Below the pieces are notes generated by a model. The model did not search any database. It saw nothing but the letters and a program-made list of their open reading frames with translations, and had not been told where the DNA came from. A stretch of 64,000 bases of DNA, taken from NCBI GenBank assembly GCA_030549795.1, contig JAUQQO010000047.1:1-64000 (forward strand), in the 5' to 3' direction. Position 1 is the stretch's first letter, and each line of letters begins with the position of its first letter. Origin of the DNA: Pseudomonadota bacterium. Lineage in GTDB: Bacteria; Pseudomonadota; Alphaproteobacteria; Geminicoccales; Geminicoccaceae. Positions 7,858 to 62,887 of this stretch are shown here, piece by piece. The translations under genes and the position numbers were made by a program.

Positions 7858-9162
7858 TCAGCCGCTTGCCCGCATCGTCGCCGGCAACCAGGTCGCAAGG
7901 CCGGGGAACACCACGAGCATGCCCACCATCACGACCATCAAGAAGAAAAATGGTGCGGAATGGCGCGCGATCCACGTGATTTGCTTGCCGGTCATCCCCT
8001 GCAACACGAAAAGGTTGAACCCCACCGGCGGCGTGATCTGGGCCATCTCGACCACCACGACCACGAAGATACCGAACCAGATCAGGTCGATTCCCGCAGC
8101 GCGGATCATCGGCTCGATCACCGCCATGGTCAGAAGGATGGTCGAGATACCATCGAGAAAACAGCCGAGTATGATGTAAAAGACGGTCAATGCGGCAATC
8201 AGGGCGAGAGGCGAGAGTTCCAGTTTCGCGATCACCTCCGCAAGCGTGCGCGGGATCCCGGTAAACCCCATCGCGAGCGAGAGAAAGGCCGCCCCCATGA
8301 GGATGAGCGCGATCATGCAGGAGGTGCGCACGGCACCCATAAGGCTCTCCAAGAAACTTTCGCGCGTGAGCGCCCCTTGCGCCGCGGCGATGGCAAGCGC
8401 ACCGACCACTCCCAGCGCTGCTGCCTCGGTGGCGGTCGCAACGCCGGTGTAGATCGAACCCAAGACGGCCAAGATCAGCCCCAGCACCGGGAGCAGCGAG
8501 CGGGCAGCAGCGATGCGCTCGCGCACACTCACGATCGGCTCTGCGGGCAGCGCCTCTTTGCGCACCATCGACCAAATCACGACATAGCCCATGAACAGAC
8601 CGGCCAAGACGAGCCCAGGCAGGACTCCAGCCATGAAAAGTTGCGCAATCGATTCGTTGACTGCCACGCCATAGACGATCATGGTAAGGGATGGCGGAAT
8701 CATGAGCCCGAGCGTGCCGGCACCGGCGAGCGACCCGACGGTGATTCCCTCGGGATAGCCGCGCTTGGAGAGCTCGGGGATGGTCATTTTGCCGATGGTG
8801 GCACAGGTGGCAGCCGAGGATCCGGACACGGCGGCAAAGATCGTGCAGCCGACGATGTTCGTGTGCAAAAGCCGCCCCGGCAGTCCGGCCACCCACGGTG
8901 CGAGACCGCGGAACATGTCCTCAGAAAGACGGGTGCGGAAAAGGATCTCGCCCATCCAGATGAAAAGCGGCAGCGCGGTGAGCGTCCAAGAGGAAGAGAC
9001 CGTCCAGATCGTGGTGATCATGGCATCGCCCGCCGGCCGTGAGGTGAACAACCACATGGCAACCAGCGCGACACCCAGAAGGGCGAGGCCGATCCACACC
9101 CCTGAGCCCAAGAGCAGGAACAACACCACGAGCAGGATTGCGGTCTCAATGAGCTGTTCCAC
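7858..9162 (-). CDS. dctM: TRAP transporter large permease (DctM family)
   Basis: A 434-residue, very hydrophobic protein of about twelve helices. GSSAATCATIGKMTIPEL, GTLGLMIPPSLTMIVYG and TPPVGFNLFVLQGM are family hallmarks of the DctM/SiaM subunit, which moves organic acids with sodium or protons. A TRAP system also needs a small permease and a binding protein; neither is beside this gene, and the only TRAP-type binding protein here is a TAXI protein 52 kb away. GTG 9162 has AGGGAG 6 nt upstream. A 336-bp gap separates it from the molybdopterin subunit gene on the same strand. Confidence 0.88.
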   Translation of the reverse strand: MEQLIETAILLVVLFLLLGSGVWIGLALLGVALVAMWLFTSRPAGDAMITTIWTVSSSWTLTALPLFIWMGEILFRTRLSEDMFRGLAPWVAGLPGRLLHTNIVGCTIFAAVSGSSAATCATIGKMTIPELSKRGYPEGITVGSLAGAGTLGLMIPPSLTMIVYGVAVNESIAQLFMAGVLPGLVLAGLFMGYVVIWSMVRKEALPAEPIVSVRERIAAARSLLPVLGLILAVLGSIYTGVATATEAAALGVVGALAIAAAQGALTRESFLESLMGAVRTSCMIALILMGAAFLSLAMGFTGIPRTLAEVIAKLELSPLALIAALTVFYIILGCFLDGISTILLTMAVIEPMIRAAGIDLIWFGIFVVVVVEMAQITPPVGFNLFVLQGMTGKQITWIARHSAPFFFLMVVMVGMLVVFPGLATWLPATMRASG

Positions 9163-9498
9163 GGGGCGCTCCCTTTCTCCAGCAGGCCTCGCAGAAATGC
9201 TAAAAGGCCGCTTAGGTCCACAAAAGGGCAGGCGCCCAGCCCCCCGCCGTACGGCGCCAATGGGCGATCTTAGGCCACGAGGACGCACCGCTCGTTCGGC
9301 CCCGTGGCCTTTTGGTGCCTAGGCTATTGTTCGACGGCCCGTGCTCGCGCGGTTGGCTGCGCGCTTGCGCGCTGCGCGTGCCTCGGCGGTGGCGCTTCTT
9401 TTCTCTTTTAGGCTCCTATCGCCTTGCGAGGAGGGTGCGAAAAGCCGGGTGGGAAAGCGCCGGTCTTTCGGGCCTTCCCACCGAGGCTCGCGCGCAGA
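9163..9498. other. 336-bp gap with an inverted repeat, no gene seen
   Basis: This stretch lies between the molybdopterin subunit stop and the dctM start on the same strand. It holds a perfect 8-bp inverted repeat, AGGCCACG (9272-9279) and CGTGGCCT (9303-9310), followed on the plus strand by TTTT, and a pyrimidine-rich run near 9400. It probably carries the dctM promoter and perhaps a terminator for the upstream oxidoreductase genes, but I cannot point to a convincing -35/-10 pair. Confidence 0.4.
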
Positions 9499-60021: not shown

Positions 60022-60525
60022 ATGTTCGCGGCTCGGCTCGCCTGCTCCTTGCCGCTCCTCTTCGCCCATTCGGCAGCCGTCGCTCCCGCCGCGGCGGCGG
60101 TTACGGATGTGCTCGGACACTATTCGGGAACCGCCGCGGATGGCGAGCGCTGGGAGGTGGAGGCAACAGCTGCCGATCAGGGCTTCGCGGTGAGCGTGCG
60201 GCGCGGCGGACAGGCGTATTTTTCCGGGCGCTTCGTTCCCACTGCCCGGCCAGGGGTCTTCGAAGCCGCCGCGACCGGCCTTTTTGCTGCGCTTGGCCGC
60301 AAGCGTGCACCGATGAACCCCCTTGAAGGGGAAGAGCTCGTGTGGGCCCGCGAGGTCGCGGGCGGTCTTGTCCTCGGTCGATTGAGTATCGAGAACGACC
60401 GTCCTTTGGTGCGCACGCTCAGCCTCGAACGCGAAGGCGATCGGCTTCGGCTGCGCCTCGAGCGGCTCGAAGGCGAGCGCCTTCTGGGCGATGCCGAGCT
60501 CGCACTCGAGCCCACAGGGCGCTGA
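60022..60525 (+). CDS. Small exported protein, cassette gene 1
   Basis: A 167-residue protein with a signal peptide (MFAARLACSLPLLFAHSAAVAPAAAA split here) and a beta-rich mature part starting TDVLGHYSGTAADGERWEVEA, with RTLSLEREGDRLRLRLERLEG. No cysteine is seen. I recognise no family; a lipocalin- or barrel-like fold is a guess. GGAAGG precedes ATG 60022. It ends 1 bp before the next gene and starts a plus-strand cassette. Confidence 0.65.
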   Translation: MFAARLACSLPLLFAHSAAVAPAAAAVTDVLGHYSGTAADGERWEVEATAADQGFAVSVRRGGQAYFSGRFVPTARPGVFEAAATGLFAALGRKRAPMNPLEGEELVWAREVAGGLVLGRLSIENDRPLVRTLSLEREGDRLRLRLERLEGERLLGDAELALEPTGR

Positions 60526-60526
60526 G

Positions 60527-61087
60527 GTGAAACGCCGCCATTGCCTTACCCTTTTGGCCGCTTTGGGAGTATTGGCGCGCCCGGCTTCGGCGCGATCGCT
60601 TGCGCTTGCGCGCTTTTTCGGCGCCTATGTGGGGACGGCCACGCTCGTCGATGAGGAGAGCGGTCGCCTCGAAGAGCGCGATCTCGACCTTTTGATCGCA
60701 CCGTTCCGCCGCTTCGGCTTTCGGCTGCGCACGATCAGCGTGACGCTCGTAGAAGGACGGCGCGATCGGCCGGGTGTGGTGCGCCGCGAGAGCGAGGCCG
60801 CGTTCGTACCCGCGCAGGGGCGTCCCTATTTCGTCGAAGAGCGCTCCTTTAGCCCGTTCCGCGCGCGCGAAGAGCTGCAGCCGATGGCCGGCGATCCGGT
60901 GCGGTGGGCAACCGTGGATGAAACGGGATTGCATCTTTGGGCCTTCGTCCTGCTCGAAGACGGGCGCTACGAGCTGCAGGCGACACACCGCTATCTGGTC
61001 CCGGACGGTCTCGAGCTCGCCTTTGCGCGCTTTGTTGAAGGCCGACGCGTCCGCCACGGCCGCGGTCGCCTCGTGCGGGTCGGCTGA
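60527..61087 (+). CDS. Small exported protein, cassette gene 2
   Basis: A 186-residue protein with signal peptide KRRHCLTLLAALGVLARPASA and a mature part beginning RSLALARFFGAYVGTATLVDEES, with RRESEAAFVPAQGRPYFVEE and ATVDETGLHLWAFVL. Its opening (FFGAYVGTA) echoes the GHYSGTA start of the previous product, hinting at related folds. No known family. GTG 60527 starts 1 bp after the previous stop, and its stop overlaps the TAXI start (TGATG), implying coupled translation. Confidence 0.65.
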   Translation: MKRRHCLTLLAALGVLARPASARSLALARFFGAYVGTATLVDEESGRLEERDLDLLIAPFRRFGFRLRTISVTLVEGRRDRPGVVRRESEAAFVPAQGRPYFVEERSFSPFRAREELQPMAGDPVRWATVDETGLHLWAFVLLEDGRYELQATHRYLVPDGLELAFARFVEGRRVRHGRGRLVRVG

Positions 61088-62115
61088 TGGCGCGCTTTAC
61101 CCATTCCACCCGGCGGCGCTTCGCCTTAAGAGGCATCGGTGCGTTCCTCGCCGCCCGAGCAGCCGCCAGCTGCGCTCAAGACGCGCGCTTCTTCCGCATC
61201 GCTACCGGCCCGGTCGGCTCGAGCACCTTCGCGCTCGGTACGCTCATCGCCGAGGCGATTTCGGGACCACCTGGTGCCCCGCCCTGCGCGCTCGGTGGTC
61301 CCTGCGGGGTGCCTGGGCTCGTTGCGCTCGCTCAGTCCTCGCCCGGCTCGCTCGCCAATCTCGAGCTTCTCGCCGGCGGTCGGGTAGAGAGCGCGCTCGT
61401 TCTCACCTTCCAGGCGCAGAGCGCCTATCTCGGCGTCTTCGACGACCTCATGCCGATGTTGCGCGGGCGCTTGCGGGCGCTCGCGGCTCTTCTTCCCGCC
61501 GCGGTACACCTGCTTGTGCGCGCGGATCTCGCGATCGACGACCTCTCCGGGCTCATCGGGCGGCGGCTGGGGCTCGAAGAGACCGGTGCCGGCACGCTCG
61601 CGCTCGCCCGCCTTCTCTTCGACGCCCGCGGCGTCGATCTGGACCGCGTCGCGCTCGCCTTCCTCCCGCGCACGTCCGCGGTCGAGAGTATGGCGGGCGG
61701 CGCGCTCGATGCCCTTCTTCTGGTCGGCCCCTGGCCGGTGCCGTCGGTTGAGGAACTCACCGCGAACGGAAATGTCCGACTTTTGCCGCTCGCGGGAGAC
61801 TGGACAGAGCGGCTCGTGCGGCGCCACCCTTGGCTTTTGCGCCAAAAGATACCGGCTGAGACCTATCTCGCTCAGCCAGCGATCGACACGGTGGCCGTGC
61901 CTTTGCTCTGGATCGTCCTCGACGAACTGGAAGAGGAGCTCGCGCACGCCCTAAATGTCGCGCTCTGGCGGCGCGAGAACCTCGAGCGGCTGCGCGCGTC
62001 GTTGCGCCAGGGTGCGGGGCTCGGGCCGGAGCAGGCGCTCTTCGGGCTCACCGTCCCCCTCCACAGCGGTGCCGAGCGCTGGTACCGCGAACAGGGTCTG
62101 ATCCGTGATCCCTGA
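61087..62115 (+). CDS. TAXI-family TRAP-type solute-binding protein
   Basis: A 342-residue periplasmic binding protein. The twin-arginine-like lead STRRRFALRGIGAFLA precedes RIATGPVGSSTFALGTLIAEAIS and the paired cysteines in PPCALGGPCGVPGLVALAQSS, the TAXI hallmark, then VLTFQAQSAYLG. TAXI proteins serve TRAP transporters with a fused permease, but none is here; the only TRAP permease lies 52 kb away. Its last 11 bp overlap the ABC ATPase start. Confidence 0.85.
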   Translation: MARFTHSTRRRFALRGIGAFLAARAAASCAQDARFFRIATGPVGSSTFALGTLIAEAISGPPGAPPCALGGPCGVPGLVALAQSSPGSLANLELLAGGRVESALVLTFQAQSAYLGVFDDLMPMLRGRLRALAALLPAAVHLLVRADLAIDDLSGLIGRRLGLEETGAGTLALARLLFDARGVDLDRVALAFLPRTSAVESMAGGALDALLLVGPWPVPSVEELTANGNVRLLPLAGDWTERLVRRHPWLLRQKIPAETYLAQPAIDTVAVPLLWIVLDELEEELAHALNVALWRRENLERLRASLRQGAGLGPEQALFGLTVPLHSGAERWYREQGLIRDP

Positions 62116-62887
62116 TCTCGCCCGACCTGCGCTGCGCCCTTCGAAGGGGGTGATCGCCCCAGCGATCGAAGTTTCGGGACTCGAGAAGCGCTTCGGTGCG
62201 GTGGTGGCGGTGGCGGGCCTCGACTTCGTCGTGCCGCGCGATCGCACGGTAGCGCTTTTGGGTCCCAACGGAGCGGGCAAGACGACCACGATCGCCATGC
62301 TGTTGGGCCTGCTCGAGCCCGACCGCGGCACTATCCGTCTTTTGGGCCACGAGATGCCCAAATCTCGCTACAGCGTTTTGCCGCGCGTCAATTTCTCGAG
62401 CCCCTATCTCGATCTTCCGTTGCGGCTTACCGTCCGCCAGAACCTTCGCGTCTACGCCGATCTCTATGGGCTCGAGGAACCCGCGCAGCGCATCAAACAA
62501 CTCGCGGCGATGTTGGATCTCGACGATCTCCTCGACCGCCCGGTCGGCAAGCTCTCGGCCGGACAGAAGACGCGGGTGCATCTCGCCAAGGCCTTGATCA
62601 ACGATCCCGAGCTCCTCTTCCTCGACGAACCCACCGCCTCCCTCGACCCCGACAGTGCCGACCGCCTGCGCGGGCATCTCGAGCGCTGGCGCGCTGCCCG
62701 TGGGGCTACGATCTTCCTCGCCTCGCACAATATGGCGGAGGTCGAACGGCTGGCCGATGAGGTGTTGCTCATGAAACAGGGCCGCTTGATCGATCGCGGT
62801 TCGCCGCACGAGCTCCTCGCCCGCTACGGCCGGCGAACGCTCGAGGAAGTGTTCCTCGACGTCGCTCGCAACCGCCGGCAGTGGTAG
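62105..62887 (+). CDS. ABC transporter ATPase without adjacent permease
   Basis: A 260-residue ATPase subunit with Walker A GPNGAGKTTTIAMLLG, Q-loop region VNFSSPYLD, signature LSAGQKTRVHLAKAL, Walker B LLFLDEPTASLD and switch His in ASHNMAEVE. It resembles the CcmA/NodI exporter-type ATPases that pair with an ABC-2 permease. GTG 62105 lies inside the TAXI gene (11-bp overlap). The next gene is an RND adaptor and no permease is within the window. Confidence 0.88.
   Translation: MIPDLARPALRPSKGVIAPAIEVSGLEKRFGAVVAVAGLDFVVPRDRTVALLGPNGAGKTTTIAMLLGLLEPDRGTIRLLGHEMPKSRYSVLPRVNFSSPYLDLPLRLTVRQNLRVYADLYGLEEPAQRIKQLAAMLDLDDLLDRPVGKLSAGQKTRVHLAKALINDPELLFLDEPTASLDPDSADRLRGHLERWRAARGATIFLASHNMAEVERLADEVLLMKQGRLIDRGSPHELLARYGRRTLEEVFLDVARNRRQW

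Follow-up and report, generated by a model that had tools for sequence, protein, structure and literature searches.

A TAXI-family solute-binding protein gene recurrently placed in front of an ABC-2 transporter in Geminicoccaceae

Transporters of the ABC-2 class of ATP-binding cassette (ABC) systems and pumps of the resistance-nodulation-division (RND) type are mostly exporters, and the PQQ-linked ABC-2 system has a periplasmic binding protein of its own, which belongs to another family than TAXI. Solute-binding proteins of the TAXI family, which are poorly understood, have been described as parts of tripartite ATP-independent periplasmic (TRAP) transporters with a fused DctQM membrane protein, although a second passage of the same source says "usually" (PMC5812351; this paper and the two others cited below are used here in excerpt). 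The nearest published parallel that we found to the locus described below is, as far as those excerpts go, TAXI-GltS, in which BP0403 of Bordetella pertussis, a multi-domain, glutamate-binding TAXI protein, lacks adjoining TRAP membrane genes and its gene overlaps that of a sodium/glutamate symporter, an arrangement that occurs in several organisms (PMC12344293, 2025). Here we analysed positions 1 to 64,000 of contig JAUQQO010000047.1 (the window), from a Geminicoccaceae genome of 3.16 Mb, near the end of which a TAXI gene stands between the genes of two small exported proteins, S1 and S2, and that of an ABC ATPase (Table 1).

The locus shares with TAXI-GltS, as excerpted, that its TAXI gene is without adjoining TRAP genes and overlaps a gene of a different transporter class. 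It differs in that the partner is an ABC-2 ATPase and permease, that the arrangement is found in one family only and that two calycin-type barrels accompany it. A further difference from BP0403, which binds glutamate, is that TAXI proteins of the window's genus have other residues at the positions key for glutamate. With VcGluP, a TAXI-TRAP system, it has the solute-binding family in common, TIGR02122 (PMC11574862, as excerpted), but neither a TRAP gene (fused DctQM) nor GltS is present among the seven genes of the unit, AlaDH and the three downstream genes annotated. On the ABC side, the ATPase models, the matches to ABCA7 and ABCA3 and the PF01061 permease liken it to ABC-2 (type V) exporters of the DrrA/NodI type and to ABCA lipid transporters, from which it is set apart by periplasmic binding-type proteins in the operon and by a Pro for the Q-loop Gln in the ATPase. 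A search of the open-access literature found no publication on a TAXI protein with an ABC-2 transporter.

The core of the locus is a widespread pair of ABC-2 ATPase and permease, directly in front of which S1, S2 and TAXI are placed in Geminicoccaceae, with frames that overlap or nearly do so. Our tentative reading is that the unit is a variant particular to this family, in which an ABC-2 transporter has recruited periplasmic binding proteins and the parts act jointly; we put this at slightly below an even chance. The recurring arrangement offers a testable candidate role for some orphan TAXI proteins, and it bears on whether a transporter of the ABC-2 class can work with a periplasmic binding protein. 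S1 and S2 point to a family of exported calycin-type barrels, encoded in pairs, that is so far undescribed.

Table 1 Features of the unit and its surroundings. Positions past 64000 continue the window numbering on the same contig.
Feature	Position	Strand	Description
AlaDH	upstream of unit		
S1	60022-60525	+	exported, 167 aa; predicted calycin (lipocalin/FABP/nitrobindin-like) barrel, paralogue of S2
S2	60527-61087	+	exported, 186 aa, GTG start; predicted calycin barrel
TAXI-family solute-binding protein	61087-62115	+	342 aa; twin-arginine-like start (by eye); TIGR02122, Pfam NMT1_3
ABC ATPase of ABC-2 transporter	62105-62887	+	GTG start; ABC_tran; Pro where Q-loop Gln expected
RND periplasmic adaptor	62959-64065	+	crosses window edge (64000)
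RND permease	64062-67238		past window end
ABC-2 permease	67235-68053		past window end; overlaps end of RND permease; PF01061
YfiH	downstream of ABC-2 permease	opposite	laccase domain
Methyltransf_28 protein	after YfiH	opposite	NDUFAF7-like
Lgt	after Methyltransf_28 protein	opposite	
DctM	7858-9288	-	TIGR00786

A sequence-only reading of the window had described S1, S2, TAXI and the ATPase as four plus-strand genes with spacings of +1, -1 and -11 nt, followed by an RND adaptor, and both the spacings and the adaptor are as it described them. TAXI is assigned by TIGR02122 (163.9 bits; cut-off 84.35) and Pfam NMT1_3 (E 2.4e-38), and the ATPase by Pfam ABC_tran (E 1.3e-29). The same reading had found no ABC permease in the window; an ABC-2 permease gene (PF01061, 29.2 bits against a cut-off of 26.9) lies just past its edge, directly after that of the RND permease. 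The ATPase thus has a permease, and we reject an ATPase without one, which only seemed to be the case because of where the window ends. That a permease gene might come soon after the RND genes had been named beforehand as the observation that would speak against the sequence-only reading, and such a gene is present on the contig. Pfam matches of this permease at E up to 0.01 comprise two ABC-2 families only, and an importer-type permease domain (BPD_transp and similar) was not found in that search.

The pairing of TAXI with the ABC ATPase recurs in the neighbourhoods of relatives (genomes and loci are referred to by our own G and L numbers). The permease was matched in 17 of the 31 family genomes, one match being short and weak (G021; E 6.5e-4, 82 residues) and counted as absent. 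Among the other 16, TAXI lies directly 5' of the ATPase in 14, from 7 genera, to which Geminicoccus harenae can be added; the two exceptions are G002, which was kept in the denominator and is interrupted by contig ends, and G008, in which the genes are apart, and the inclusion of G003 among the 14 rests on locus L120, which was matched to G003 by its coordinates and contains the 3' end of TAXI only. In 14 of 15 units, the window's own included, a possible ATPase start lies close to the TAXI stop, at most 47 bases ahead of it or 25 bases past it; the fifteenth is L120, in which no ATPase start codon was found. This exceeds chance and agrees with the earlier claim that the four genes are almost surely one unit, and because the pairing recurs in 7 genera we reject the view that TAXI and ATPase are chance neighbours of a single genome.

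The composition of the unit varies around this pair. Within the window's genus the whole order S1-S2-TAXI-ATPase-adaptor-RND-permease is present in G001, G004 and G005, with the 5' part lost at contig ends in G003 and G002, and in the other genera the order is S1-S2-TAXI-ATPase-permease, with no RND pair. TAXI-ATPase-permease without S1-S2 occurs in Arboricoccus pini, Geminicoccus harenae and G022, and G025 is cut at TAXI. The RND pair lies between ATPase and permease in 5 of the 6 genomes of the window's genus (in the sixth, G002, the contig that carries adaptor-RND-permease lacks the ATPase) and in 0 of the 10 units outside it, for which reason we did not adopt it as part of the basic device. 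The loci L090, L094 and L096 correspond to the locus of the window unit, yet hold no ABC pair between TAXI and YfiH.

The sequence-only reading had S1 and S2 as two small exported proteins unrelated to known ones, with similar mature starts, GHYSGTA and GAYVGTA. Comparison by hhalign makes the two paralogues (probability 99.5, E 4.1e-23), so we reject that they are unrelated to each other, and the similar starts reflect homology. No convincing Pfam match was obtained for either. For S1, no NCBIfam match was obtained and the only Pfam match was below its cut-off (E 0.07); none of 21 members of the S1/S2 family has a Pfam match better than this value, and a sequence comparison with PDB gave nothing at an E threshold of 1. 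The AlphaFold model of S2 (pLDDT 89.6, pTM 0.79) gave weak matches in plain Foldseek, three with E at most 0.001 and a query TM of 0.45-0.55, so that the fold call for S2 relies on a second look by VIA-align, in which Z reached 16.2 for BFA1, 15.5 for DUF3598, 14.0 for nitrobindin and 13.3 for FABP7-palmitate. For S1 (pLDDT 85.7) the fold was taken from this second look only, with Z of 12.4 for DUF3598, 11.4 for nitrobindin and 11.0 for FABP7. The models of S1 and S2 have alignment rows in common and do not count as independent. Both models form the single antiparallel beta-barrel of 8-10 strands of the calycin superfamily, so S1 and S2 are predicted to be lipocalin/FABP/nitrobindin-like barrels, a lipid-binding type of fold, and such paired exported barrels apparently constitute an undescribed family. 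Matches to S2 occur in 26 of 96 genomes, and other genomes also have S1-S2-like tandem pairs at a distance from TAXI and ABC genes. In other Alphaproteobacteria, tandem S1/S2-like barrels (L098, 4497-5646; L101, 3647-4809) stand beside what appear by eye to be genes for CCA-adding enzymes.

By eye, the ATPase has a Walker A, an LSAGQ signature, a Walker B and an H-loop. At the Q-loop, Gln is replaced by Pro in 126 of the 132 ATPases that adjoin this permease, the position being located by a custom spacing rule for which the control within the set is one sequence, and the alignment with ABCA7 likewise has the Pro at this position. The Pro lies in a conserved stretch, NFSSPY(V/L)DLP, which is found in the window ATPase and in those adjoining the same permease in L115 and L118-L257. 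The best NCBIfam models are drrA, RbbA and NodI, all under their cut-offs, and among solved chains the closest are ABCA lipid transporters, with ABCA7 best and ABCA3 also matched. Similarity to the ATPase of the PQQ-linked system (TIGR03864; E 2e-51, 174.7 bits) stays below the curated cut-off of 302.25, and that system would be a possible precedent for an ABC-2 transporter that works with a binding protein.

If the parts do act jointly, the substrate that the ABC-2 pair moves across the inner membrane, or out of it, might be a small molecule of hydrophobic or amphiphilic character. TAXI together with S1/S2 might be its binding partners in the periplasm, or might bind a modulator there, and would either carry it onward, in the window's genus perhaps towards the RND pump, or hand it to the permease. 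The ligand is probably small and hydrophobic; its nature, the direction of movement and the physical coupling of the parts are all things that we infer. We prefer the outward, carrier version because ABC-2 and RND systems are mostly exporters and because the barrels are of a lipid-binding fold type. One could also speculate that the unit represents a new class of binding-protein-dependent transporter, in which the TAXI protein has left the TRAP context and attaches to an ABC-2 permease, two lipid-type barrels serve as co-carriers and an RND pump joined later in one genus, all forming a single relay between the inner membrane and the outside that might run in either direction; this more far-reaching proposal we consider unlikely.

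The clade of the window TAXI contains no TRAP-linked member. Rooted at the midpoint, a tree of 46 TAXI proteins (reduced from 95 redundant rows) has long TRAP-linked branches and a backbone without resolution outside the family groups. It places 13 of the 14 TAXIs linked to ABC genes, together with all 5 rows that carry the S2-only label, in a group of 19 rows (support 97/97). The fourteenth, G011, falls into a wider group of 23 rows (82/89), and neither group contains a TRAP-linked row. Two of the S2-only rows, G002 and G003, are from the window's genus and have their ABC genes merely cut off by contig ends. The labels come from tblastn in the available flanks, often 0.5-1.5 kb, and a TRAP label may have been missed, since the unlabelled row L113 groups with a TRAP-linked one. 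In a sample of TAXI loci from the phylum (the 29 best-scoring, not a random draw, with about 1.5 kb on each side), a TRAP permease accompanies 19, an ABC ATPase is found on the opposite strand in 1 and on the same strand in 0, while 9 (L262, L264, L266, L268, L272, L274, L276, L280 and L285) have no match to any of the partners looked for, namely TRAP permease, ABC ATPase, ABC-2 permease and S2.

We then consider the ligand pocket. VcGluP depends most strongly on Tyr45 and Gln93, which are key for glutamate, in the excerpted account of PMC11574862. The two residues are not found throughout the TAXI family. We located the equivalent of Gln93 through an alignment with 1us4 together with that account, and infer the equivalent of Tyr45 from the VYY motif. 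All 6 genomes of the window's genus have T, A or V for the Tyr and L, H or R for the Gln, whereas all 10 ABC-linked TAXIs from other genera retain both; among 16 unlabelled TAXIs, Tyr is kept in 15 and Gln in 15. The pocket change coincides with the insertion of the RND pair in the window's genus, and a link between the two is a guess. The retained residues would also suit a different reading, in which the system imports its substrate and TAXI hands its ligand to an ABC-2 permease that acts as an importer: TAXI proteins are import receptors, one of them is reported with another class of permease in TAXI-GltS (PMC12344293, as excerpted), and Arboricoccus pini has the unit and no DctM match. Against that reading stand a permease that matches ABC-2 families only and whose relatives in 60 other families have no adjoining TAXI or S genes, and an efflux pump inside the unit in the window's genus, and we regard it as distinctly improbable. 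The sequence-only reading had suggested a sensing or uptake device, a role that the unit may have.

To judge how specific the association is, we turn to the ABC pair in other families. At an E threshold of 1e-40 the permease is matched in 140 of 385 genomes from the class. By our count 64 other families have such a match, and 60 of them were sampled, each by a single genome. The ATPase adjoins the permease in 59 of these 60 loci, and TAXI, S1 and S2 were found in 0 of the 60 within the fetched stretch, which reaches at least 2 kb upstream in 58. Among the best 80 of 251 confirmed loci, TAXI is present in 13, all 13 from Geminicoccaceae, and in none of 66 others; L119, also a family locus, ends before the TAXI position would be reached, and among the 66 is L185, which carries an S2-like gene on the opposite strand. 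As these other-family loci lack it, the TAXI-ABC association is limited to Geminicoccaceae as far as sampled. Judged by eye in 11 loci, and with no family search made on them, the genes upstream of the ABC pair outside the family are ordinary and unrelated.

The same loci introduce the points that weigh against joint action of the parts. The ABC pair is found elsewhere without TAXI, S1 or S2. Three family genomes that are 82-86% complete, G016, G021 and G028, retain S1-S2-TAXI, with YfiH directly after TAXI and no ABC pair at the locus; the permease is not matched in G016 and G028, and G021 has only the short, weak match mentioned above. S1-S2 and TAXI are apart in G007, G008 and G009, where, according to the gene lists, the related TAXI is alone, with no permease match in G007 and G009 and a permease elsewhere in G008. 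Among the 14 ABC-bearing family loci examined, AlaDH lies upstream in 11 and YfiH downstream in 12, so that unrelated flanks are about equally conserved and synteny alone is no proof of joint function. Finally, of 11 TRAP-labelled TAXIs, Tyr is kept in 9, Gln in only 3, and both are missing in 2, and since TRAP-labelled TAXIs thus often lose these residues too, their loss is not special to this unit and makes a weak argument.

These observations could be explained by a conserved neighbourhood with no joint mechanism, in which the S1-S2 pair, a TAXI protein of the orphan kind and an exporter of the ABC-2 class are inherited at one locus and each functions independently. The modules are evidently separable, as the 60 other-family loci, the three genomes with S1-S2-TAXI and no ABC genes, and the TAXIs with neither TRAP nor ABC genes beside them all illustrate, and the flanking genes keep their places about equally well. 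Against independent functions stand frames that overlap or nearly do so across 7 genera, a permease that stays next to TAXI in 14 of 16 family genomes, and an intact order TAXI-ATPase-permease in G011, G017 and G018, where the AlaDH flank, the YfiH flank or both were not found. While we find this alternative somewhat doubtful, it is a serious contender to our tentative reading of a jointly acting ABC-2 variant.

A last possibility is that TAXI is served by a distant TRAP permease and that the ABC-2 and RND genes form an unrelated efflux system. The sequence-only reading had held that no TRAP permease is present in the window, which has to be corrected: a DctM gene (TIGR00786, 384.1 bits against a cut-off of 268.45, from NCBIfam) lies about 52 kb from the unit, and the genome has 21 DctM matches in all. 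This DctM is of the unfused type, however, whereas TAXI-TRAPs are described with fused DctQM (PMC5812351, as excerpted). Moreover, Arboricoccus pini (G018) carries the unit and has 0 DctM matches in a search that was positive in 25 of 32 genomes, and we take service by a distant TRAP permease to be very unlikely. No DctQ or DctP was noticed among the open reading frames near the window DctM, which were read through with no model search made of them; the window DctM may be a stand-alone large subunit.

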